A stretch of DNA of 64,000 bases from Iocasia fonsfrigidae (GTDB lineage Bacteria; Bacillota; Halanaerobiia; Halanaerobiales; DTU029). Below are positions 24,559-35,567 of the stretch, in pieces. A program made the position numbers and the translations under genes. Below the pieces are notes generated by a model. The model ran no database searches. It saw only the letters and a list, made by a program, of their open reading frames with translations, and was not told where the DNA came from. Position 1 is the first letter of the stretch. The number at the start of each line of letters is the position of its first letter. Where the stretch lies: contig NZ_CP046640.1 in the NCBI RefSeq assembly GCF_017751145.1, positions 124,001-188,000 of the forward strand, written 5' to 3'.

Positions 24559-26292
24559 ATGGCTTTTCTATCATTATATAGGAAGTATCGTCCCGATGAT
24601 TTTGAGGGGCTGATAGGCCAGGAGCATGTAGTTAAAACCTTGAAGAACACATTGCAGACCGGTAGGATCGGCCATGCCTATCTATTTGCTGGTCCACGGG
24701 GAACAGGTAAGACATCTACTGCTAAAGTCTTTGCTAAGGCTTTAAATTGTGTTAAGGGGCCAACTATAGAGCCCTGTGGTGAATGCCCGGCATGTCAGAA
24801 GATTAATTCAGGGCGGTCCCTGGATGTTATTGAGATAGATGCTGCTTCAAATCGAGGTATTGATGAGATAAGGGATCTCCGGGAAAAGGTTAAATTCTAT
24901 CCTACTGAAGGAGATTATAAAGTATATATTATAGATGAGGTACATATGTTAACTAAAGGGGCTTTTAATGCCCTGCTTAAGACATTAGAAGAGCCCCCCG
25001 AAAATGTCGTATTTATCCTGGCTACTACTGAACCACACCGTGTAATCGATACCATACTCTCCCGCTGCCAGCGTTATGATTTTTCCTTATTAACTATTAA
25101 AGATATTAAGAAACGGTTAAAATATATTTGTCAGGCTGAATCTGTGACCTATCATGAAGGGGCAGTGGACCTTATTGCCCGCAGTTCTAATGGTGGTATG
25201 AGGGATGCGATAAGTCTACTGGATCAGGCAATTTCTTTTACAAATGGTCAGTTAGATGAAAATCGCTTGCAGGAGATGCTTGGTAAGGTAGATAGCACAG
25301 TATTGGTTGATTTATTTAATAAAATAGTAAATAAAGAAACGGCTGCTGCCATTGAATTATTAAACCAGATTATTGATAGGGGTAATGCCCTGTCTGTTTT
25401 GCTTGATGATTTAATTGAATACCTCAGGCAGTTACTTTTGATCAAGGAATGCGGGGGCAAAACAAGTGTTCTTGACCTCCCTGAAGAGAGAATAGAGGAA
25501 CTACTGCAGGAAAGTAATAAAGTTGACATATCTTTATTAATAAACTTTATTGAGGAGTTAACAAGTATTAAAAAAGATTTTGTTTTTACAGAACAGCCGC
25601 AGATACTCCTGGAAATGGGTATAATAAAATTGGCTGCTTTAGATCAGGGTGATTCCCTTACTGCATTAAAATCCAGGATAGCCAGCTTAGAGCTTGCCTT
25701 AAAGGAATTACTTGAAGGTAAAAGAAAGGCAAGACCTCCAGTTTCGGTTGATAAACAGGGAGGTCAGGAAGCAAAAACGGTTAATAATACAAAACCGTCA
25801 GTAATAGAAGATAAGAGTGAAGATAAAAAAAATGTTGTTAAGAAGAAAGAAAGAGATACAGGACCTGCCGAGAATAGTAATATTACTATTGAACAGGTAA
25901 GGGAGCTGTGGCCTGTTATTCTGGAGAAAATAAAGGAGAAAGATATAAGTGTTCAGGCCTATCTACTGGAGGGAAAACCAGAGGCTGTTATAGATAATTG
26001 TCTTAGTATTGAGTTTCCAGAAGATAAGGGTTTTCATAAAAATGCTGCTGCCAGGAAGTTAGACCTTGTTAAAAAGGTGATAACGACTGTACTAGGTACA
26101 GACTGCCAGCTTGTTTTTAAGCTGAGAGGAGAAGAACTAGCTGAGGCTAAAAAAAAAGAACTGACTGAGCAGGAGAGCAATAATGGAGATAGAGAAGATA
26201 ATAGAGATGACCTTGTTGATAGGGTAGCTGATTTTTTTGAAGGGGAAGTAATAAAGGTTAATTATGAAGTATTAGAAGATAAAGGGACTTAG
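24559..26292 (+). CDS. dnaX: DNA polymerase III subunits gamma/tau
   Basis: A 577-residue clamp-loader ATPase. The P-loop GPRGTGKTS lies at about 45-53. The zinc module CGECPAC follows near 73-79, Walker B IIDEVHML near 118-125, and the sensor region TTEPHRV near 150-156. The C-terminal half has a lysine-rich linker (SEDKKNVVKKKERDTG) and a domain expected to contact the polymerase alpha subunit. Length is normal for a full tau; whether a shorter gamma form is made cannot be told. GGGAGGTGATCC precedes the ATG. It is first in the dnaX-ybaB-recR operon. Confidence 0.96.
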   Translation: MAFLSLYRKYRPDDFEGLIGQEHVVKTLKNTLQTGRIGHAYLFAGPRGTGKTSTAKVFAKALNCVKGPTIEPCGECPACQKINSGRSLDVIEIDAASNRGIDEIRDLREKVKFYPTEGDYKVYIIDEVHMLTKGAFNALLKTLEEPPENVVFILATTEPHRVIDTILSRCQRYDFSLLTIKDIKKRLKYICQAESVTYHEGAVDLIARSSNGGMRDAISLLDQAISFTNGQLDENRLQEMLGKVDSTVLVDLFNKIVNKETAAAIELLNQIIDRGNALSVLLDDLIEYLRQLLLIKECGGKTSVLDLPEERIEELLQESNKVDISLLINFIEELTSIKKDFVFTEQPQILLEMGIIKLAALDQGDSLTALKSRIASLELALKELLEGKRKARPPVSVDKQGGQEAKTVNNTKPSVIEDKSEDKKNVVKKKERDTGPAENSNITIEQVRELWPVILEKIKEKDISVQAYLLEGKPEAVIDNCLSIEFPEDKGFHKNAAARKLDLVKKVITTVLGTDCQLVFKLRGEELAEAKKKELTEQESNNGDREDNRDDLVDRVADFFEGEVIKVNYEVLEDKGT

Positions 26293-26324
26293 TTTTTGTC
26301 AAAAAAATAAGGGGGTTTATAACG

Positions 26325-26633
26325 GTGAATATGAATAAACTAATGAAACAGGCTCAGCAGATGCAGGCGAAGATGGCCAAGATGCAGGATGAATTAAAAG
26401 AAAAGACGGTTGAGGCTACTGCCGGAGGTGGGGTTGTTAAAGTAGTTGTAAATGGGAAACAGGAATTGTTGGATATAAAGATTGACCCTGATGCTGTTGA
26501 CCCTGAAGATGTAGAAATGCTGGAAGACCTGATCCTGGCAGCTGTTAATGAAGGTATGCGAAAAATTTCAGATATGGTTAATGAAGAGATGGGCAAATTA
26601 ACCGGCGGGATGAATATCCCGGGGATGTTTTAA
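26325..26633 (+). CDS. ybaB: Nucleoid-associated protein YbaB/EbfC
   Basis: A 102-residue small DNA-binding protein with the family pattern: N-terminal helix rich in Met and Gln ([20 protein letters not shown]), then [20 protein letters not shown], and a conserved acidic segment ([18 protein letters not shown]). It is thought to bind DNA as a dimer and influence nucleoid structure. GTG 26325 is used because GGGGG lies about ten bases upstream; ATG 26331 is a possible shorter start. Its stop overlaps the recR start by one base. Confidence 0.93.
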
Positions 26634-27229
26634 TGAGATATTATCCCCGTCCTATGGGGAAGTTAATCAATGAGTTAAGTAAGTTGCCTGGGGTGGGTCC
26701 TAAAACTGCACAGCGTCTGGCTTTTTTTATACTGGGGCGTAATAAGGGTGAGGTAAATGAACTAGCCCGGGCTCTACTTGATGCCAGGGAGAATATAAGG
26801 TATTGTTCTGTCTGTAATAATTTGACGGAAGAAGAGACCTGTAATTTTTGTTCTTCACTGGAGAGAGACAGGTCATTAATCTGTGTGGTAGAGAGTCCTA
26901 AAGATGTAATTGCTATGGAAAAAACAGGTGAATATAATGGTCTTTATCATGTTTTACATGGTTCTATTTCCCCAATGGATGGAGTAGGGCCTGATGATAT
27001 TAGGATTAAAAATCTAATTCCCCGTCTCAAGGAAGGGGTTGATGAGGTCATTGTAGCCACTGATCCTAATGCAGAAGGTGATGTGACGGCTATGTATTTA
27101 GCTAAACTGCTAAAACCACTGGGGGTTAAAGTAACCAGGATTGCTCACGGTCTTCCGGTGGGTGGTGACCTGGAATATGCTGATGAAGTAACCCTATCAA
27201 AGGCTTTAGAGGGTAGGAGAGAGTTATAA
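26633..27229 (+). CDS. recR: Recombination protein RecR
   Basis: A 198-residue protein of the RecFOR pathway that helps load RecA at gapped DNA. It has an N-terminal helix-hairpin-helix ([15 protein letters not shown]), a four-cysteine zinc module ([16 protein letters not shown]) and a TOPRIM domain ([16 protein letters not shown], then [18 protein letters not shown]). The end ([20 protein letters not shown]) is typical. The ATG overlaps the ybaB stop by one base, so translation is coupled. Confidence 0.96.
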
Positions 27230-27264
27230 GTAGGACTATCATGATGGTAGTTCTACTTATTATT
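27228..27264 (+). terminator. Hairpin after recR
   Basis: ATAAGTAGGACTATC and its near-exact complement (GGTAGTTCTACTTAT) flank ATGAT. The tail is only moderately T-rich, so termination is likely but may be partial. Confidence 0.6.
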
Positions 27265-27359
27265 TATTAAAGATTAAAATTTTTTAATTAAAGAGGATAT
27301 TATAAACTAACAGCGAAAATAATATATGGATAAAATATTTATAGAGGGAGGGAGTTAGC

Positions 27360-28307
27360 TTGATTACAACTGTTACTTTAAATCCAGCAATAGATAGGGA
27401 ATATTTTGTTACAGAACATGTGGCTAAAAGACATGAATACCTTTATGATAAAAAGGATATCAGGGTATACCCTGGTGGGAAAGGTCTTTTAACAGCAATT
27501 GATTTAAAATACATGGGATACCCAGATGTACAGAATTTAGGTTTTGTAGGTGGTAAACAGGGATTGTTTTTTGAAAAGATGGTCCAGAAGTATAAGATAA
27601 CGACAAATTATATCTATACCGAAAATGAGATCAGGAATAATGTCTTTATTATTTCAAAAAACCCGGTAACTTTTACCCATTATAGTGATTATTCTTACAG
27701 GGTGACTAAAAAAGATGTTGAGGATCTGATTAAACGCTTTAAAAGGGCTATAGTGGATAGTGATCTGATTATTATAGCAGGCTCAATACCTGAGGGTGTA
27801 GATTTTGATATATATCAAAGGATGATTAGTATTTGTAATGGCCAGGACAAGGATGTTTTCTTGGAGGCCAGTGGAGAGACCTTAAATCAGGCTTTAAAGG
27901 AAAAGCCAAAAGTAGTTAGTCCATACTTTAAACACACCAGAAAAATACTTGACCAGGAGGTTGTGGAATTTGAGGATTATGTAAAAATGGGTTATAGATT
28001 GTTAGAGGAGGGTGCCCATAGTGTAGTTATTCCTCACCACTGTGATCGTTTATTATTTATAGATGGCAAGGCTTATTCTTTAACACCAGTAGATTTTTGT
28101 CTTAGAAACTGGTTAGGTGCTGGTGATGCTTATAATGCTGGATTTTATGACTATATAGCCCGTAAAGGTTTTGACTTTATAGAGGCCAATAGGTATGGGG
28201 CAGCAGCAGCACTTACTGTGGCAGAAAACAGAAGTATTTTTATTAAAGATAAAGAATTGATCAAAGATAATTTAAATAGAATTAAAATCAAAGAGTTGGA
28301 GGTGTAG
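27360..28307 (+). CDS. PfkB-family kinase-like protein, copy 1
   Basis: A 315-residue protein of the PfkB/ribokinase fold, closest in pattern to 1-phosphofructokinase or tagatose-6-phosphate kinase: TLNPAIDREYF at the N-terminus, PGGKGLLTAIDLKYMG where true sugar kinases have GGKG-x-N-x-A, and the catalytic GAGDAYNAGF near 248-257. The Asn after GGKG is replaced by leucine, so sugar binding may be altered. It starts with TTG behind GGGAGGGAG and is followed four bases later by the CBS-domain gene. A phosphosugar kinase or a ligand-sensing role coupled to the antiporter are both possible. It is 99% identical to copy 2 at 30436 by eye (two residue differences after the start). Confidence 0.75.
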   Translation: MITTVTLNPAIDREYFVTEHVAKRHEYLYDKKDIRVYPGGKGLLTAIDLKYMGYPDVQNLGFVGGKQGLFFEKMVQKYKITTNYIYTENEIRNNVFIISKNPVTFTHYSDYSYRVTKKDVEDLIKRFKRAIVDSDLIIIAGSIPEGVDFDIYQRMISICNGQDKDVFLEASGETLNQALKEKPKVVSPYFKHTRKILDQEVVEFEDYVKMGYRLLEEGAHSVVIPHHCDRLLFIDGKAYSLTPVDFCLRNWLGAGDAYNAGFYDYIARKGFDFIEANRYGAAAALTVAENRSIFIKDKELIKDNLNRIKIKELEV

Positions 28308-28783
28308 CAACTTGGGTATAGTTAAGGATTATATGATGCGCACCCTGGTTTCAGTTTGTGAGGATGATCAGATAAAAGAGGCCATTAGAATTATGTATAA
28401 GGCCGAGATGTCGGTATTACCAGTTGTTAATGCAGAGAACAAATTTTTAGGGACTATTTATAGTGAAAACATATTAAAGAATATTCTCCCAGAGAAGTAT
28501 GGCTACCTTGTTAATAATCGTTTATTATATGAGGTTAATCAGGCAGCTGATAATTTGGAAGAGATTAAGGATAGAACTGTTGGTGAATATATGTTCGCCC
28601 GTACATCTGCTGTATTAGAAAATGACAAGATGTATAAAATTGCAGATGTTATGTTAGATAATAAAGAATCAATACTTTTTGTTGTCAATGAGTCTGGAAA
28701 TCTGAGGGGTTATATTTCCCGGGCAGATTTACTCTATTATTTATTAAAAGTCTGTAATAAACAGGATGAATAAAAAATAAGAC
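27372..28783 (+). repeat. Large direct repeat, copy 1 (partner 30448-31859)
   Basis: This stretch recurs 3,076 bases downstream with almost no differences across the PfkB-like gene and the first part of the CBS gene. One cluster of changes lies near 27841-27865. A divergent patch of about 90 bases (about 28519-28611) follows, then identity resumes to the end of the CBS gene. The antiporter genes that follow are clearly diverged. Confidence 0.93.
28312..28773 (+). CDS. Two-CBS-domain regulatory protein, copy 1
   Basis: A 153-residue protein made of two CBS motifs (VKDYMMRTLVSVCEDDQIKE, SVLPVVNAENKFLGTI; then MYKIADVMLDNKES, ILFVVNESGNLRGYISRADL). CBS pairs bind adenine nucleotides or related ligands and regulate enzymes and transporters. 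TTG start with GGAGGTG inside the end of the PfkB gene; translation is probably coupled. It stands between a kinase-like gene and an ion antiporter and so is likely the ligand-sensing link of the cassette. The segment around 69-101 differs from copy 2, while both ends are nearly identical. Confidence 0.82.
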   Translation: MGIVKDYMMRTLVSVCEDDQIKEAIRIMYKAEMSVLPVVNAENKFLGTIYSENILKNILPEKYGYLVNNRLLYEVNQAADNLEEIKDRTVGEYMFARTSAVLENDKMYKIADVMLDNKESILFVVNESGNLRGYISRADLLYYLLKVCNKQDE

Positions 28784-28825
28784 AATAATTCAATAATTCA
28801 ATAAAATATCGAGGTGTAAGTGAAG

Positions 28826-30118
28826 ATGGATTTTGAAATTGATAAATTGCGGGGGTTTGGAGAATGGTTTCTACTAAACCATGCTAATAATAAACTGATT
28901 TATGTGCTAGGAATTTTAATTATTATGGCTTTTTTAGTTGTCTTATTAACTAAAAGGTATAGGGTTCCTATTGTTGTTGGGTATGTTTTTTTGGGTATGT
29001 TGATTAGTCATGATGTTATAAATTTTTTGCCTTTTATAGGCTCAGTGCAGAAAGAGTGGTACTTTTTTGCGTTAAATAATCTGGGTTATCTGACCAATAT
29101 AGCTCTGGCATTTATTGCTTTTACTATTGGGACAGAGCTTTCTATTAAGACCTTGAAGCAATTGGGTAAATCTATTATATTTATCGCTTTGTTGGAATCC
29201 ACTGGAGCCTTTATGATAGTAACTTTGGTTGTACTTGCTATGGGCAAACCTTTATATCTGGCTTTAGTATTGGGAGCAATAGCTTCAGCAACAGCTCCGG
29301 CAGCTACAGTTATGGTACTCAAGGAATATAGGGCAGAAGGGGAATTAACCTCATCAATATTGGCTGTGGTAGGGATAGATGATGCTATAGCACTAATTAT
29401 CTTTAGTTTAGTAGAACCTATTGCACTTATTCAACTTAAAGGTGGGGGTAATCTTTCTCTGGGACAGATATTAGGCAAACCCTTCTTGGAGATATTTGGT
29501 TCGCTTTTTATTGGTTTAGTAGTAGGATATCTTTCCCAGATGTTGATAAGCAGTTTTGAAGATGATACTAAGAAAATTTTATGCTTAGTTACAACAATTA
29601 TAGGGGGTTCAGCCCTGGCTATTTTCTTGAATTTTTCTCCTTTGATTACAAATATGGCAGTTGGTTTTGCTTTTCGTAACTTTGCCAGGAAAAATCTCGG
29701 TGTAGGTAGTTATATGGATATACTTACGATACCTTTGTATGCTATGTTTTTTATTCTAGCTGGGACAGAGATACGTTTAACAGGTATTGCCTCAATTAGT
29801 TTTTTAATGATTGCTTTTGTCTATCTGATTTCTCGGATTATCGGCAAGGTATCAGGTGCTTCATTGGGTGCTATTTTAGGTAAAGCACCAGATAAGGTTA
29901 AGAAATATATAGGTTTCGGATTATTACCTCAAAGTGGTGTTGCTATTGCACTGGCATATACCGTACAACAGGACTTCGTTACAGCACCTCAGATTGGCTT
30001 ATTAGTTTTTAATGTACTTTTATTTACAGCAGCTTTGACTGAGGTATTTGGACCATTTGCTACCAAATATGCTCTAATAAAATCAGGTGAAGCAAGGGAA
30101 AGTATCACAAACACTTAA
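28826..30118 (+). CDS. CPA2-family cation:proton antiporter, copy 1
   Basis: A 430-residue membrane protein with about 12 hydrophobic segments. It carries the CPA2/Kef-type markers: RVPIVVGYVFLGML near 45-58, SATAPAATVMVLKEY near 155-170 and the DD pair in GIDDAIALIIFSL near 186-198, expected to be the ion-binding site. No TrkA-N/RCK domain is fused at the C-terminus, so regulation may come from the separate CBS protein upstream. I use ATG 28826 because it matches the start of copy 2. GAGGTG lies nine bases upstream. Na+/H+ or K+/H+ exchange is expected; the ion is not determined. A terminator follows at 30256. Confidence 0.85.
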   Translation: MDFEIDKLRGFGEWFLLNHANNKLIYVLGILIIMAFLVVLLTKRYRVPIVVGYVFLGMLISHDVINFLPFIGSVQKEWYFFALNNLGYLTNIALAFIAFTIGTELSIKTLKQLGKSIIFIALLESTGAFMIVTLVVLAMGKPLYLALVLGAIASATAPAATVMVLKEYRAEGELTSSILAVVGIDDAIALIIFSLVEPIALIQLKGGGNLSLGQILGKPFLEIFGSLFIGLVVGYLSQMLISSFEDDTKKILCLVTTIIGGSALAIFLNFSPLITNMAVGFAFRNFARKNLGVGSYMDILTIPLYAMFFILAGTEIRLTGIASISFLMIAFVYLISRIIGKVSGASLGAILGKAPDKVKKYIGFGLLPQSGVAIALAYTVQQDFVTAPQIGLLVFNVLLFTAALTEVFGPFATKYALIKSGEARESITNT

Positions 30119-30255
30119 TTATGAAAAGGACTATTATGAAAGAGCCTTATTTAAAAAACTTGTCTTGTAATGAAAAACGGCCTTTTTGTGTTCATATTAT
30201 GTTAATATATTTAATAATGAATTGATTAAAATAAGATTAAATTTGTTCAAAAGAT

Positions 30256-30287
30256 AGAGAATCCTTGTTTCGAGGATTCTCTTTTTT
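30256..30287 (+). terminator. Terminator between the two cassettes
   Basis: AGAGAATCCT and AGGATTCTCT form a perfect 10-bp stem with a seven-base loop and a T6 tail. The rest of the 317-base gap holds a promoter for copy 2 and nothing else seen. Confidence 0.9.
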
Positions 30288-30332
30288 AATGTCCAGGAAA
30301 TTAGTACTTATATTTTTTAAATTTAGAATAAT

Positions 30333-30362
30333 TTTACTAGTGTTTATTTTTTATGATATAAT
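30333..30362 (+). promoter_or_regulatory. Candidate promoter of cassette copy 2
   Basis: TTTACT, an 18-base spacer and a perfect TATAAT, about 70 bases upstream of the copy 2 kinase-like gene. A terminator precedes it, so copy 2 is likely transcribed independently of copy 1. Confidence 0.5.
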
Positions 30363-30435
30363 AAATTAAGATTTATACCCTAGGAATGGGGGGGGAATCT
30401 GACGGAATGATAAATTATTAAGGGGGGAGATAATT

Positions 30436-31383
30436 ATGATAACTACAGTTACTTTAAATCCAGCAATAGATAGGGAATATTTTGTTACAGAACATGTGGC
30501 TAAAAGACATGAATACCTTTATGATAAAAAGGATATCAGGGTATACCCTGGTGGGAAAGGTCTTTTAACAGCAATTGATTTAAAATACATGGGATACCCA
30601 GATGTACAGAATTTAGGTTTTGTAGGTGGTAAACAGGGATTGTTTTTTGAAAAGATGGTCCAGAAGTATAAGATAACGACAAATTATATCTATACCGAAA
30701 ATGAGATCAGGAATAATGTCTTTATTATTTCAAAAAACCCGGTAACTTTTACCCATTATAGTGATTATTCTTACAGGGTGACTAAAAAAGATGTTGAGGA
30801 TCTGATTAAACGCTTTAAAAGGGCTATAGTGGATAGTGATCTGATTATTATAGCAGGCTCAATACCTGAGGGTGTAGATTTTGATATATATCAAAGGATG
30901 ATTAGTATTTGTAATGACCAGGACAAGGATGTTTTCCTACAGGCCAGTGGAGAGACCTTAAATCAGGCTTTAAAGGAAAAGCCAAAAGTAGTTAGTCCAT
31001 ACTTTAAACACACCAGAAAAATACTTGACCAGGAGGTTGTGGAATTTGAGGATTATGTAAAAATGGGTTATAGATTGTTAGAGGAGGGTGCCCATAGTGT
31101 AGTTATTCCTCACCACTGTGATCGTTTATTATTTATAGATGGCAAGGCTTATTCTTTAACACCAGTAGATTTTTGTCTTAGAAACTGGTTAGGTGCTGGT
31201 GATGCTTATAATGCTGGATTTTATGACTATATAGCCCGTAAAGGTTTTGACTTTATAGAGGCCAATAGGTATGGGGCAGCAGCAGCACTTACTGTGGCAG
31301 AAAACAGAAGTATTTTTATTAAAGATAAAGAATTGATCAAAGATAATTTAAATAGAATTAAAATCAAAGAGTTGGAGGTGTAG
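30436..31383 (+). CDS. PfkB-family kinase-like protein, copy 2
   Basis: A 315-residue near-duplicate of the gene at 27360. It differs in its first codons at DNA level (ATG start here, TTG in copy 1) and at two residues near 162 and 171 (N-D-Q and L-Q where copy 1 has N-G-Q and L-E). The PfkB features are the same: TLNPAIDREYF, GGKGLL and GAGDAYNAGF. GGGGGGAG lies upstream. The ATG start and separate promoter imply that copy 2 can be expressed at a different level. See copy 1 for the functional reading. Confidence 0.75.
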   Translation: MITTVTLNPAIDREYFVTEHVAKRHEYLYDKKDIRVYPGGKGLLTAIDLKYMGYPDVQNLGFVGGKQGLFFEKMVQKYKITTNYIYTENEIRNNVFIISKNPVTFTHYSDYSYRVTKKDVEDLIKRFKRAIVDSDLIIIAGSIPEGVDFDIYQRMISICNDQDKDVFLQASGETLNQALKEKPKVVSPYFKHTRKILDQEVVEFEDYVKMGYRLLEEGAHSVVIPHHCDRLLFIDGKAYSLTPVDFCLRNWLGAGDAYNAGFYDYIARKGFDFIEANRYGAAAALTVAENRSIFIKDKELIKDNLNRIKIKELEV

Positions 31384-31859
31384 CAACTTGGGTATAGTTA
31401 AGGATTATATGATGCGCACCCTGGTTTCAGTTTGTGAGGATGATCAGATAAAAGAGGCCATTAGAATTATGTATAAAGCCGAGATGTCGGTATTACCAGT
31501 TGTTAATGCAGAGAACAAATTTTTAGGGACTATTTATAGTGAAAACATATTAAAGAATATTCTCCCAGAGAAGTATGGCTACCTTGTTAATAATCATTTA
31601 TTATATGGGGTAAATCAGGCAGCTGAAAATTTGATAGAGGTTAAGGAAAGAGGGGTTAAAGAATATATGTCAACCAGAACCTCTGTTGTAATGGAAAATG
31701 ACAAGATGTATAAAATTGCAGATGTTATGTTAGATAATAAAGAATCGATACTTTTTGTTGTCAATGAGTCTGGAAATCTGAGGGGTTATATTTCCCGGGC
31801 AGATTTACTCTATTATTTATTAAAAGTCTGTAATAAACAGGATGAATAAAAAATAAGAC
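30448..31859 (+). repeat. Large direct repeat, copy 2 (partner 27372-28783)
   Basis: Second copy of the 1.4-kb near-identical tract. The junction at the 5' end falls inside codon four of the kinase-like gene, and the 3' end falls just after the CBS gene stop. Confidence 0.93.
31388..31849 (+). CDS. Two-CBS-domain regulatory protein, copy 2
   Basis: A 153-residue CBS-pair protein nearly identical to copy 1 at both ends. The centre reads HLLYGVNQAAENLIEVKERG and then VKEYMSTRTSVVMEN, where copy 1 has a different linker. Changes are confined to the link between the CBS motifs, where ligand contacts and partner contacts often lie. This suggests that the two copies sense different ligands or bind different antiporters. 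TTG start, same ribosome-binding site arrangement as copy 1. Confidence 0.82.
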   Translation: MGIVKDYMMRTLVSVCEDDQIKEAIRIMYKAEMSVLPVVNAENKFLGTIYSENILKNILPEKYGYLVNNHLLYGVNQAAENLIEVKERGVKEYMSTRTSVVMENDKMYKIADVMLDNKESILFVVNESGNLRGYISRADLLYYLLKVCNKQDE

Positions 31860-31890
31860 TATAATTTAATAAGATACTGAGGTGTAATAA

Positions 31891-33198
31891 ATGGATTTTG
31901 AAATTGATAAATTACGGGACATTGGGGAGTGGTTTGTATTAAATCAGGCTAGCAATAAATTTATTTATGTGGTAGGTTTTTTGATCTTTATGGCTTTATT
32001 AGTTGTCTTATTATCTAAAAAGTATAGGGTTCCTATTGTTGTTGGATATGTTTTTTTGGGTATGTTATTTAGTCATGATGTTATAAGTGCCCTCCCTTTT
32101 ATAAGTCCAGAACAAAAAGAATGGTACTTTTTTACCTTGAACAACTTTGAGTATATGACTAATATAGCTCTGGCATTTATTGCTTTTACTATTGGTACTG
32201 AGCTTTCGGTTAAGATGTTAAGACGTCTGGGTAAACCGATTATGTTTATTGCCTTTATACAATGTATAGCAGCTTTTCTTGTAGTAACAATAGCGGTACT
32301 TGCTATTGGTAAGCCGCTATATCTGGCTTTAATATTGGGGGCAATATCTTCAGCAACAGCACCAGCCGCAACTGTAATGGTACTTAAGGAATATAAAGCT
32401 GAAGGTGTACTGACAGCAATGATCATTGCTGTAATAGGGATAGATGATGCTATAGCCCTGATAATTTTTAGTCTAATAGAACCTATTGCTCTTACGCAAT
32501 ATAGTGGGAGTGGCTCCCTGGCTATTAGCCATCTATTGGGAGAACCGATGATAGAGATTTTTGCTTCTCTATTTATTGGCTTGATTATCGGTTACCTTTC
32601 CCAAAGTTTAATAAGTACCTTTGAGGATAGTACTAAGAAAATTTTAACTTTAGTCACAACTATTATAGGTGGATCAGCACTGGCGCTTTTACTGAATTTG
32701 TCTCCCTTAATAACTAATATGGCAGTTGGTTTTGCTTTTCGTAACTTTGCCAGGAAAAACCTTGGTGTAGGTAATTATATGGACATACTTACGATACCTT
32801 TATATGCTCTATTTTTTATTCTGGCTGGGACAGAGATAAGGTTGGCAAGTATAGCTTCAAGTAGTTTTTTGATCATTGCTTTTGTTTATTTAATCTCCAG
32901 GGTTATAGGTAAGGTGTCAGGTGCCTCTTTAGGGGCAATTTTGGGACAGGCACCAGATAAAGTCAAGAAATATATTGGTTTAGGCTTGTTACCGCAGAGT
33001 GGTGTTGCTATAGCAATGGCCTATACTGTGCAGCAGGATTTTATAGCAGTTCCTGAAGTTGGTTTGCTGGTTTTTAATGTGTTGTTATTTACAGCAGCAC
33101 TTACTGAGGTATTTGGACCATTTGCTACCAAATATGCAGTAGTCAAAGCTGGTGAAGCACATGGTTTAGAAGAGGGAGTACGAAAAGAGAATGCTTAA
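31891..33198 (+). CDS. CPA2-family cation:proton antiporter, copy 2
   Basis: A 435-residue paralogue of the antiporter at 28826, about three-quarters identical by eye. It keeps RVPIVVGYVFLGML, SATAPAATVMVLKEY and the GIDDAIAL ion-binding pair. Differences are spread across loops and lipid-facing helices (for example SPEQKEWYFFTLNNFEYM). The C-terminal tail is longer (GLEEGVRKENA). GAGGTG precedes the ATG. The split between near-identical upstream genes and diverged transporter genes suggests specialised ion or pH ranges under shared regulation. Confidence 0.85.
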   Translation: MDFEIDKLRDIGEWFVLNQASNKFIYVVGFLIFMALLVVLLSKKYRVPIVVGYVFLGMLFSHDVISALPFISPEQKEWYFFTLNNFEYMTNIALAFIAFTIGTELSVKMLRRLGKPIMFIAFIQCIAAFLVVTIAVLAIGKPLYLALILGAISSATAPAATVMVLKEYKAEGVLTAMIIAVIGIDDAIALIIFSLIEPIALTQYSGSGSLAISHLLGEPMIEIFASLFIGLIIGYLSQSLISTFEDSTKKILTLVTTIIGGSALALLLNLSPLITNMAVGFAFRNFARKNLGVGNYMDILTIPLYALFFILAGTEIRLASIASSSFLIIAFVYLISRVIGKVSGASLGAILGQAPDKVKKYIGLGLLPQSGVAIAMAYTVQQDFIAVPEVGLLVFNVLLFTAALTEVFGPFATKYAVVKAGEAHGLEEGVRKENA

Positions 33199-33229
33199 TT
33201 TTTTATAATTATATTAAAGAATTGTATGC

Positions 33230-33260
33230 AGGGCAGCTGTGAAATTGGCTGCCCTATTTT
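33230..33260 (+). terminator. Terminator after cassette copy 2
   Basis: AGGGCAGC and GCTGCCCT form a perfect 8-bp stem around TGTGAAATTG, with a TATTTTATT tail. Confidence 0.85.
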
Positions 33261-33333
33261 ATTAGCCAAAAGTTATTTTCTGTATAAAGTTTTTTATTTA
33301 TGTAAAAAATAATTGGGAAAGAGGGGTGTTGTA

Positions 33334-33780
33334 GTGTTTGGATTTCCATTACTTTATCTTGCTTTAGCAGCCCTGGCAGGACTTTCTATGGCATTACAGG
33401 GGTCACTTAATGCTGTACTGGGGAAAAAGACAGGTATATTGGAGGCCTCATTTATTGTTCATTTTACTGCTGTAATTGTCCTGTTAATTTTTATTCTTAT
33501 AAATTTGAATAAAATTAATATCCCCCAATGGAGAAAAATCCCCTGGTATCTTTATCTGGGTGGTTTACTGGGGGTAATTATAAGTTATACGGTGATAATT
33601 ACTATTCCTAAGCTAGGGGTAGCTGTAGCAACTACCGCGATAATTACCGCACAGGTTTTAACAGCTTCTTTTATTGATCACTTTGGCATTTTTGGGCTGG
33701 AAGAGATCCCATTTACCTGGATTAAGCTGGTAGGGGTGTTTTTTTTGGCTGCAGGGGTGCGTTTATTGTTGCATAATTGA
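33334..33780 (+). CDS. DMT-superfamily transporter of the YdcZ/DUF606 family
   Basis: A 148-residue membrane protein with five hydrophobic segments. It begins FGFPLLYLALAALAGLSMALQG and has the family features GSLNAVLGKKTG and LYLGGLLGVIISY. Such half-size DMT proteins act as dimers and export or import small molecules; the substrate is unknown. I chose GTG 33334 because GAGGGG lies seven bases upstream; an in-frame TTG at 33313 lies before that site and is unlikely. It is followed ten bases later by a DUF2508-like gene. Confidence 0.8.
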   Translation: MFGFPLLYLALAALAGLSMALQGSLNAVLGKKTGILEASFIVHFTAVIVLLIFILINLNKINIPQWRKIPWYLYLGGLLGVIISYTVIITIPKLGVAVATTAIITAQVLTASFIDHFGIFGLEEIPFTWIKLVGVFFLAAGVRLLLHN

Positions 33781-33790
33781 AAGGGGTTAA

Positions 33791-34111
33791 ATGATGGAAT
33801 TGATGACCTTAAAAGATCAATTGAGTGATTTTTTGGCTAAAAGTAAAGAAATTTATCGATATCTTAAGGAGTCCTGGCTTATCTCTAAAACTGAATTCGA
33901 CCGAGCAAAATTGCCCAATAATAAGGTTGATATATATAAAGAACTGGAAGAGGCATATCAGGAATGGGTTGAGGCGAAACAGTATTTTAATAATGTCTCA
34001 GAACCACCTGAACTGATTGATCATGCAGCCTATTTAGTTCAGGCTGCTGAAAGAAAGTATATCTTCTATTTAAAAAAAATCAGGGGAAAAGAAGAATCAG
34101 GGAATCTATAA
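33791..34111 (+). CDS. DUF2508/YaaL-like small protein
   Basis: A 106-residue charged, helical protein. The C-terminal half (LIDHAAYLVQAAERKYIFYL then KKIRGKE) matches the DUF2508/YaaL pattern of an aromatic-charged helix ending in a basic stretch. In Bacillus, yaaL lies near recR; here it follows a small transporter. There is no signal peptide or cysteine. AAGGGG precedes the ATG. Its role is not established in the family. Confidence 0.6.
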   Translation: MMELMTLKDQLSDFLAKSKEIYRYLKESWLISKTEFDRAKLPNNKVDIYKELEEAYQEWVEAKQYFNNVSEPPELIDHAAYLVQAAERKYIFYLKKIRGKEESGNL

Positions 34112-34131
34112 CTTTTAATTCTTGTGAAACC

Positions 34132-34160
34132 TTGTACAAAATAAGATACTGTGATATACT
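34132..34160 (+). promoter_or_regulatory. Promoter of hydF
   Basis: TTGTAC, a 17-base spacer and TATACT. It lies about 170 bases before the hydF ATG and so implies a long untranslated leader. Confidence 0.6.
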
Positions 34161-34166
34161 AATCTA

Positions 34167-34297
34167 AACAAAATAAAAAACCTGTTTATATGTTTTATAT
34201 TTTTCTTCCTGGGTTTGAGGGTTGTCCTGAGAACAGGGGAAGGGGTTTGTTTTGTAAAGTTATCTCTACCTGTTAATTATCTGGTAGGGTTTTTTGT
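34167..34297 (+). promoter_or_regulatory. Structured 5' leader of hydF with terminator-like hairpin
   Basis: The predicted transcript starts near 34167. Its leader contains a G-rich hairpin (CTTCCTG near 34205 with CAGGGGAAG near 34234) and a later CTACC/GGTAG hairpin followed by GGTTTTTT (34265-34297). That is an arrangement compatible with transcription attenuation. It matches no riboswitch class that I recognise. The leader also lacks an obvious leader peptide. Confidence 0.4.
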
Positions 34298-34328
34298 ATT
34301 TTGTTGAAAAATAAGAGGAGTGATATTT

Positions 34329-35567
34329 ATGCAGGATACACCACAGGCTAATCTGCCTCATATTGCTGTTTTTGGCCGTCGTAATGTTGGGAAATCCAGT
34401 TTAATTAATGCCCTTACAAATCAAAAGCTGGCCCTGGTATCTGAAATAGCTGGAACTACTGCTGACCCTGTCTATAAGAAAATGGAGTTGCTCCCACTGG
34501 GTCCAGTGGTTATGATTGATACTGCTGGAATTGATGATACAGGAGACTTAGGTGAGCTCAGGGTTGAAAAGACTATGGAGGTTATCCGCAAGACAGATCT
34601 GGCCCTACTTGTTATTGAAGCAGACTATGGTATAACTGAATTTGAAAGAAGGCTCTATAGTCATCTACAAGAAAATGAGATTACTATTCTGGTGCTGATT
34701 AATAAGACTGATATCTGTCAGGAGGAAATCTCAGGGCTCACTAGGCAAATTAAGGAAGAATGGGATCAGGAGCCTATTACTGTTAGTGCATTACAAAAGA
34801 AAGGCATTGATAATCTACGAAATAAGATTGTCCAGAATGCCCCTGAAGATTATGAAGAACCATTTATTATTGGTGATTTAATTAATCCCGGGGATATAGT
34901 GATACTGGTTACACCGATTGACCTGTCAGCCCCTAAGGGGAGATTGATTTTACCTCAGGTACAGACAATTAGGGATGTCCTGGATCATGATGGTATTGTA
35001 ATTGTAAATAAGGAACGGGAACTGAAAATGACTTTAAGTAAGTTGAAAGAAAAACCAAAGATTGTTGTCACAGATTCCCAGGCTTTTATGAAGGTAGATG
35101 CTGATGTCCCAGATGATATATTAATGACCAGTTTTTCAATTCTCTTTGCCCGTTATAAAGGTGATCTGGAGATGTTTCTGGAAGGGGCTAGAAAACTAAG
35201 AGAACTAAAGGCTGATGACAGGGTCCTTATAGCTGAAGCCTGTACACATCACCGGCAGGCTGATGACATTGGTACAGTAAAGATTCCCCGCTGGCTTAGG
35301 TCAAAGGTTGGTAATGGACTAAAGTTTGATCATGTTTCTGGTCGTGAATACCCTAAAAACTTGAATGATTATGATTTGATTTTACATTGTGGTGGGTGTA
35401 TGTTAAACCGGAGGGAAGTAATTTCTCGACTGAGAGAGGCCCATCAGGCTGGTGTTCCAGTAATAAATTATGGGATGGCGATTGCCCAGTTACATGGTAT
35501 TCTTGATAGGGCTTTAAAACCCTTTACGGCTATACATTCAATCTGGCTTGATGAGGAACAGGGTTAA
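34329..35567 (+). CDS. hydF: [FeFe]-hydrogenase H-cluster maturation GTPase HydF
   Basis: A 412-residue protein: GTPase domain (GRRNVGKSSLINAL about 18-31; DTAGIDDTG; NKTD), a dimerisation domain, and a C-terminal Fe-S domain with the HydF signature EACTHHRQADDIG and the later CGGCMLNRREV (H-x-C...CxxC cluster ligands). HydF is the scaffold on which HydE and HydG build the 2Fe subcluster of [FeFe]-hydrogenase before transfer to HydA. AGGAG lies eight bases upstream of ATG 34329; the in-frame GTG at 34320 overlaps that site. hydE, hydG and the hydrogenase are not in the window. It is 20 bases before aspA. Confidence 0.95.
   Translation: MQDTPQANLPHIAVFGRRNVGKSSLINALTNQKLALVSEIAGTTADPVYKKMELLPLGPVVMIDTAGIDDTGDLGELRVEKTMEVIRKTDLALLVIEADYGITEFERRLYSHLQENEITILVLINKTDICQEEISGLTRQIKEEWDQEPITVSALQKKGIDNLRNKIVQNAPEDYEEPFIIGDLINPGDIVILVTPIDLSAPKGRLILPQVQTIRDVLDHDGIVIVNKERELKMTLSKLKEKPKIVVTDSQAFMKVDADVPDDILMTSFSILFARYKGDLEMFLEGARKLRELKADDRVLIAEACTHHRQADDIGTVKIPRWLRSKVGNGLKFDHVSGREYPKNLNDYDLILHCGGCMLNRREVISRLREAHQAGVPVINYGMAIAQLHGILDRALKPFTAIHSIWLDEEQG

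Follow-up and report, generated by a model that had tools for sequence, protein, structure and literature searches.

Why does a membrane antiporter without a nucleotide-binding domain of its own follow genes for a sugar-kinase-like protein and a two-CBS protein, and do the three proteins act together? The question is raised by a locus of Iocasia fonsfrigidae within a stretch of 64,000 nucleotides, here called the window, which corresponds to positions 124001-188000 of the 3.93-Mb single-contig genome. On one strand, at window positions 27360-30118, genes for a PfkB-fold protein (27360-28307), a two-CBS protein (28312-28773) and a CPA2-type cation/proton antiporter (28820-30118) follow one another, and the set occurs again at 30436-33198. 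A first-pass annotation, made by reading the sequence, had described these genes as one regulatory transport unit; the presence of a PfkB-fold, a CBS and an antiporter gene is confirmed by their open reading frames (ORFs) and by Pfam matches above cut-off.

Comparison of gene order strongly supports the view that the three genes form one unit. As to its function, we consider it rather probable that the cation/proton antiporter is gated by two separate soluble sensor subunits, which would tie ion exchange to energy or sugar-phosphate status. The observed basis consists of conserved linkage, lost kinase signature residues, purifying selection and a PII-like neighbour in the wider antiporter family; from there we infer physical contact, ligands, the direction of control and the transported ion.

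Linkage of the three genes in the Halanaerobiia

Profile searches in 59 genomes of the Halanaerobiia found 32 genes of the kinase-like clade in 29 genomes, each scoring above 550 bits. In a draw of 398 genomes from the phylum, Halanaerobiia included, the kinase-profile score falls to 160 bits at the next match. The CBS clade has 33 members, all above 220 bits, and these occur in exactly the 29 genomes that carry the kinase-like gene. Without exception (32 out of 32), a CBS gene lies directly 3' of the kinase-like gene, and the antiporter comes next in 31 cases, two in the window and the others in 29 out of 29 regions; in the remaining case (L128), a contig end cuts the set before the antiporter. 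The regions examined in the class, 60 in total, are those around the better matches listed in the antiporter search.

Gene neighbourhoods vary by family, with murA/mreB-like genes flanking the set, arginine-pathway genes together with an esterase, or, in the window, recR (names from sequence reading). All 20 named loci of the antiporter search belong to the Halanaerobiales or to genera of that order; 16 contain the full set and the other four the antiporter only. Named carriers include Orenia metallireducens, Halanaerobacter jeridensis, Halanaerobium congolense, Halanaerobium saccharolyticum, Halanaerobium salsuginis and Halanaerobium kushneri. The first-pass annotation had suggested a survey of this kind and had named genes unlinked in other genomes as evidence against its idea. 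What we find across the 59 genomes is that linkage is kept, in several unrelated neighbourhoods, which speaks for a set that works as a unit.

Of the 29 regions, 26 have a kinase-CBS gap of 2-5 bases and the remaining three show overlapping ORF calls; the gap between CBS gene and antiporter is looser (-37 to 311 bases). The distance correlation is 0.93 for kinase and CBS protein and 0.79 for kinase and antiporter; shared ancestry confounds these values, and little can be built on them. The looser gap and the lower correlation, together with the occurrence of solitary antiporters in the class, would suit mere co-expression: the kinase-like and the CBS protein would belong to stress responses or metabolism and be transcribed from a promoter common to them and the antiporter, without acting on it. 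We regard this as quite improbable, since the linkage is conserved across several neighbourhoods and kinase and CBS genes co-occur perfectly. Moreover, the antiporter has no sensor domain of its own, and its relatives outside this branch adjoin PII-like proteins, as described below.

The PfkB-fold protein and its CBS partner

The first gene encodes a protein of 315 aa from a TTG start. It matches Pfam PF00294 (PfkB) with 77.7 bits, well above cut-off, and its predicted structure is a complete, confident PfkB fold (predicted local distance difference test, pLDDT, 89). The nearest NCBIfam model, for 1-phosphofructokinase (1-PFK)/hexose kinase, gives 165.6 bits, below its cut-off of 216.4. A housekeeping 1-PFK role is unlikely, since the genome encodes two true 1-PFKs at other loci, which reach 322 and 308 bits on the NCBIfam model. 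Of the nearest kinases outside the clade, the one read closely is a canonical FruK in a fructose phosphotransferase system operon (L163), with genes of the same sizes around it in L164.

Signature residues were compared in an alignment of 31 operon proteins and 33 canonical controls, their roles being presumably those seen in ribokinase-family structures. The controls comprise 31 of the 67 listed matches above cut-off, namely those with a locus given, and two proteins from outside the class; their choice by score cut-off favours intact motifs. The substrate Asn (N44), the Lys of KPN (K187) and the NxxE pair (N189/E192) are each present in all 33 controls and in none of the 31 operon proteins. 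The non-canonical substrate loop pointed out by the first-pass annotation is confirmed: it reads GGKGLL in place of GGKGxN, and all 31 aligned proteins lack its Asn. The GAGD motif is altered in 21 of the 31 proteins. Its catalytic D256 is Asp in 22 and Glu in nine, and the anion-hole glycine G255 is kept in 20 and replaced by Ser in 11. D169, G227 and G230 are changed in most operon proteins, and D12, G39, G40, G42 and R92 are kept, with Lys (29) or Arg (two) at position 41. A further 41 positions are near-invariant in the clade and rare in the controls. In ten kinase pairs, the ratio of nonsynonymous to synonymous divergence (dN/dS) is 0.03-0.15, which indicates that the gene is strongly constrained and not decaying. 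Because the NxxE residues, the KPN Lys and the substrate Asn are lost in 31 out of 31 proteins, the PfkB-fold protein is probably a pseudokinase. From the original designation as a PfkB-like kinase, the fold can be retained, and "kinase" is probably a misnomer.

The main rival explanation starts from the same protein. It could be a working kinase whose ATP site has been remodelled; the CBS protein would then sense either what this kinase makes or the sugar phosphate that it uses up, such that an enzyme step would be coupled to the antiporter. In favour of this, the fold is complete, D12, GGKG and R92 are kept, and both window copies still have GAGD, including Asp256 (10 out of 31 overall). Further support comes from TM0828 of Thermotoga maritima (2ajr, "possible 1-phosphofructokinase"), the nearest solved structure by profile and fold (template modelling score, TM, 0.92; 30% identity). 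In the alignment TM0828 lacks the NxxE residues as well, an alteration common to both, and has GAGD, as does the window protein; therefore, some activity is in principle possible. Unlike the operon proteins, TM0828 keeps N44 and K187. Activity is difficult to reconcile with the loss of K187, N189, E192 and N44 throughout the clade, and with the Ser255 and Glu256 variants in an otherwise highly conserved protein. On balance, we consider an active kinase rather unlikely. In view of the absent NxxE residues, the function of TM0828 itself deserves re-examination; a literature search on its gene neighbourhood gave no paper.

FruK and LacC (1-phosphofructokinase and tagatose-6-phosphate kinase; 2abq, 2awd, 2jg1) have the fold, an N-terminal NPAID, GGKG and the sugar-phosphate Arg92 in common with the operon proteins. 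Unlike these enzymes, the operon proteins lack NxxE, the KPN Lys and the substrate Asn, mostly carry an altered GAGD, and score below the NCBIfam cut-off. A PfkB fold serving as a non-catalytic regulator has a parallel in FLN1 and FLN2 of chloroplasts, PfkB-fold pseudokinases that act as regulatory, non-catalytic subunits, although in plastid transcription and not in transport.

The second gene encodes a protein of 153 aa in which Pfam recognises two CBS stretches (72.3 bits, well above cut-off). They form a Bateman module, modelled with a pLDDT of 86.6, and the nearest relative is MJ1225, a protein that binds adenine nucleotides. In the ribose-binding S/T-x-x-D motif of CBS1, Asn stands for the usual Asp in 29 out of 29 proteins; in CBS2, the Asp is kept in 20 of the 29, including both window copies, and lost in nine. 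With these losses, nucleotide binding may be weak or confined to one site. An identity with CbpB, a receptor of cyclic di-AMP (c-di-AMP), was rejected, as the NCBIfam scores of 37.1 and 39.5 bits are far below the cut-off of 125.

The antiporter and the putative sensors of its family

Antiporter 1 (432 aa) matches Pfam Na_H_Exchanger with 114.2 bits (cut-off 26.2). On the nearest NCBIfam model, CPA2 TIGR00932, the two window antiporters reach 45.4 and 40.7 bits, far below 238.3, and fall outside the core of the model. The only solved relatives found are 5bz2 and 4bwz, which we take to be entries of NapA, a CPA2 protein (E about 1e-7). At low similarity, the DD ion site and the GK lysine of NapA align with GIDDA and a GK lysine in both window antiporters. 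Unlike NapA, 11 of the 47 operon-clade antiporters are without the full DD site, which is replaced by GLDNT in five, and 36 possess it. In agreement with the earlier statement that a C-terminal nucleotide-binding domain is missing, the Pfam scan found no RCK or TrkA domain in the antiporter, and in operon-clade antiporters the chain ends about 11 residues (22 at most) after the last conserved block. Eight of the 29 regions (L062, L064, L065, L068, L069, L076, L080 and L082) have a second antiporter in tandem, 38-110 bases after the first; those of L076, L080 and L082 fall together with the ones that stand singly in L096 and L097. Hetero-oligomers with unequal ion sites are conceivable.

Outside the operon branch, a PII-like gene lies beside the same-family antiporter, on the same strand, in 36 of 40 loci, and an operon-type CBS or kinase-like protein in none of the 40. 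These regions surround the better-scoring antiporter matches outside the branch, and three of them (L184, L191 and L192) come from Halanaerobiia. The four loci without a PII-like gene are L171, L193, L201 and L206; two of these, L171 and L201, run up to a contig end. The PII assignment is weak but consistent: Pfam P-II is the best family for all five proteins tested and exceeds the cut-off for two of them, and PII proteins head a weak PDB listing. In L167-L206, the PII-like proteins are mostly 105-140 aa long, belong to many Bacillota families and are encoded mostly before, sometimes after the antiporter gene. Among the neighbouring genes of the window set there is no PII-like gene, and in the open-licence literature we found no paper on the PII-like/antiporter pairing. 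The regulatory sensing proposed in the first-pass annotation thus receives indirect support from relatives; contact and ligands are likewise putative in our account.

A tree of 113 antiporters separates a PII-type clade (48 rows, 43 with a PII-like gene) from a Halanaerobiia-type clade (65) with 100% support in the Shimodaira-Hasegawa-like approximate likelihood ratio test (SH-aLRT). It excluded pieces shorter than 280 aa (those from the class) or 340 aa (all others) and was computed by a quick method without a mixture model, with a midpoint root and a long-branch warning that concerns mostly PII-type rows. The Halanaerobiia-type clade comprises all 31 first antiporters of a set, all eight tandem antiporters, the CBS-only antiporter from the source genome, and 25 partnerless ones. 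Of the latter, 18 form a clade of their own and seven are scattered, one of which (L077) ends at a contig end. The simplest reading of this midpoint-rooted tree is that sensors were exchanged, in either direction, with PII-like proteins in one antiporter branch and the putative pseudokinase-CBS pair in the other. In the clade of 18 (among L092-L113 except L094, L096, L097 and L108), LDE or IDE replaces the DD ion site, possibly reflecting a different ion or coupling ratio.

From these parts, the following mechanism can be suggested. The set would provide a cation/proton antiporter and two sensor subunits made as separate soluble proteins. The CBS protein would bind nucleotide, most likely an adenine nucleotide and possibly c-di-AMP. 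The PfkB-fold protein, having lost the catalytic machinery and kept part of the sugar-phosphate site, would be a ligand-binding pseudokinase paired with the CBS protein, and the two would jointly modulate the antiporter, which is itself without a regulatory domain. As a result, Na+(K+)/H+ exchange would be tied to energy or sugar-phosphate status in salt-adapted anaerobes. A more specific version is put forward with some hesitation: in a three-part system, pseudokinase and CBS protein might jointly replace the PII-like sensor, such that combined sugar-phosphate and nucleotide readings set cation/proton exchange.

Several points weigh against gating by a sensor pair. Besides the intact GAGD of the window copies, the example of TM0828 and the altered ribose-binding motifs, it has to be kept in mind that linkage of genes is not proof of physical contact. 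A third locus of the source genome (L003:1006-2766, about G000:C1:1877156-1878886) encodes CBS protein and antiporter without a kinase. Two genomes, G022 and G046, have an operon-clade antiporter and no member of the kinase or CBS family, partnerless operon-clade antiporters also occur in genomes with the set elsewhere (e.g., L087 and L089), and the 18 Halanaerobiia antiporters described above are a sister clade without a partner of either kind. Because of the CBS-antiporter locus and the two genomes with a partnerless antiporter, the kinase is not an obligatory part of the set; the view of three genes as one set holds for their linkage and has to be relaxed in this respect. The locus L003 would also fit regulation of the antiporter by the CBS protein alone, with the PfkB protein serving some other purpose in an accessory role, e.g., stabilising the CBS protein. 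We find this hardly credible, since L003 is the sole such locus and its CBS protein the only family member in the class without an adjoining kinase-like gene (32 out of 33 adjoin one), and since no other pair is as close in spacing or as high in distance correlation as kinase and CBS protein. Gating by the pseudokinase-CBS pair remains the explanation that we prefer.

Among known systems, KhtTU is a CPA antiporter under a soluble regulatory protein, and the tail of KefC is of the RCK type. The proposed set would resemble KhtTU, KefC-KefF and YcgO-PtsN in that a cation/proton antiporter is made dependent, for its activity, on a second, cytosolic protein that reports on metabolism or nucleotides. 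PtsN-YcgO and KefF-KefC are described as CPA antiporters under soluble regulatory proteins, and YcgO as carrying its own RCK/CorC tail (PMC11808508). Compared with YcgO and KefC, the antiporter studied here is tailless, and its partners are PfkB-fold and CBS proteins. A second parallel is SbtA-SbtB, a Na+-dependent bicarbonate transporter with a trans-acting PII-like adenyl-nucleotide sensor (PMC10117731). Common to both is a membrane transporter with a separately encoded small soluble protein that binds nucleotides and controls it, in our case putatively, and the antiporter family has PII-like neighbours outside the operon branch; unlike SbtA, a bicarbonate transporter with a PII-like partner, the antiporter here is accompanied by the putative pseudokinase-CBS pair. 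Clustering with exporters of metals, CzcABC, is described for PII-NG proteins (PMC7726332). Antiporters are listed in two papers on Halanaerobium, these partners being unmentioned in the accessible parts (PMC4237134, PMC13340142), and one reports a salt-in strategy in Halanaerobium (PMC13340142). In the open-licence literature we found no paper on the PfkB-like/CBS/antiporter set.

Trans-acting sensors of antiporters are already known; for a sugar-kinase fold deprived of catalytic residues and linked through gene order to a CBS protein and an antiporter, the open-licence literature yielded no example. If our explanation is true, it would provide a direct link from carbon and energy state to ion exchange in salt-adapted anaerobes, and an example of a regulator exchanged wholesale inside one transporter family. 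GAGD, GASD and GAGE would then represent a natural series for the change from enzyme to sensor. For the wider antiporter family, the PII-like neighbour in turn makes a prediction that can be tested.

The two copies and their surroundings

The second set lies on the same strand and encodes a PfkB-fold protein (315 aa, 30436-31383), a two-CBS protein (153 aa, 31388-31849) and an antiporter (435 aa, 31891-33198) that is 78% identical to copy 1. At the DNA level, the copies are 99.6% identical in the kinase, 98-99.5% at the ends of the CBS gene and 77.4% in the antiporter. One tract shared with the second set at 99.5-99.6% identity covers the kinase and the first part of the CBS gene (27374-28519), and another at 98.1% the end of the CBS gene (28627-28784); the 107 bases in between are 78.5% identical. 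Synonymous divergence amounts to 0.027, 0.082 and 0.96 for kinase, CBS protein and antiporter, respectively. A simple recent duplication is ruled out by this unequal divergence. The duplication is an old one, with kinase and CBS genes homogenised later, most simply through gene conversion, and the antiporters left to diverge; therefore, both antiporters have a near-identical partner pair. The first-pass annotation had argued from duplication of the whole set that it works as a unit. The repeat exists, but it is weaker evidence than supposed, given that only kinase and CBS genes were re-homogenised.

A consensus scan placed terminator-like hairpins on the forward strand between recR and the first set (27226-27260), between both sets (30256-30282) and 3' of the second set (33230-33255), with eight such sites observed in the region and 2.9 expected. 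With hairpins before, between and after the sets, the two sets seem to be transcribed as separate units. Promoter-like matches showed no excess (29 compared with 26.9 in shuffles). No riboswitch or other known RNA gave a match of weight upstream of the sets in the window section 26000-35000, and in 12 related regions the sole match was a T-box, which is unrelated. Antiporter 1 is called from a GTG at 28820; its true start may be the ATG at 28826, which matches the start of antiporter 2. As to a viral origin, IMG/VR contained no relative, a search that did not extend to phage or plasmid collections.

Behind the second set, a DMT_YdcZ membrane protein and a DUF2508 protein are encoded at 33313-34111, and a pair of similar appearance comes after the antiporter in L061, L073 and L085, which belong to the same family. 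Elsewhere in the window, the segment 48400-50093 has a low G+C content of 28% and encodes a MarR-like regulator and a glycosyltransferase, judged from its sequence to be of the macrolide type; it was possibly acquired.

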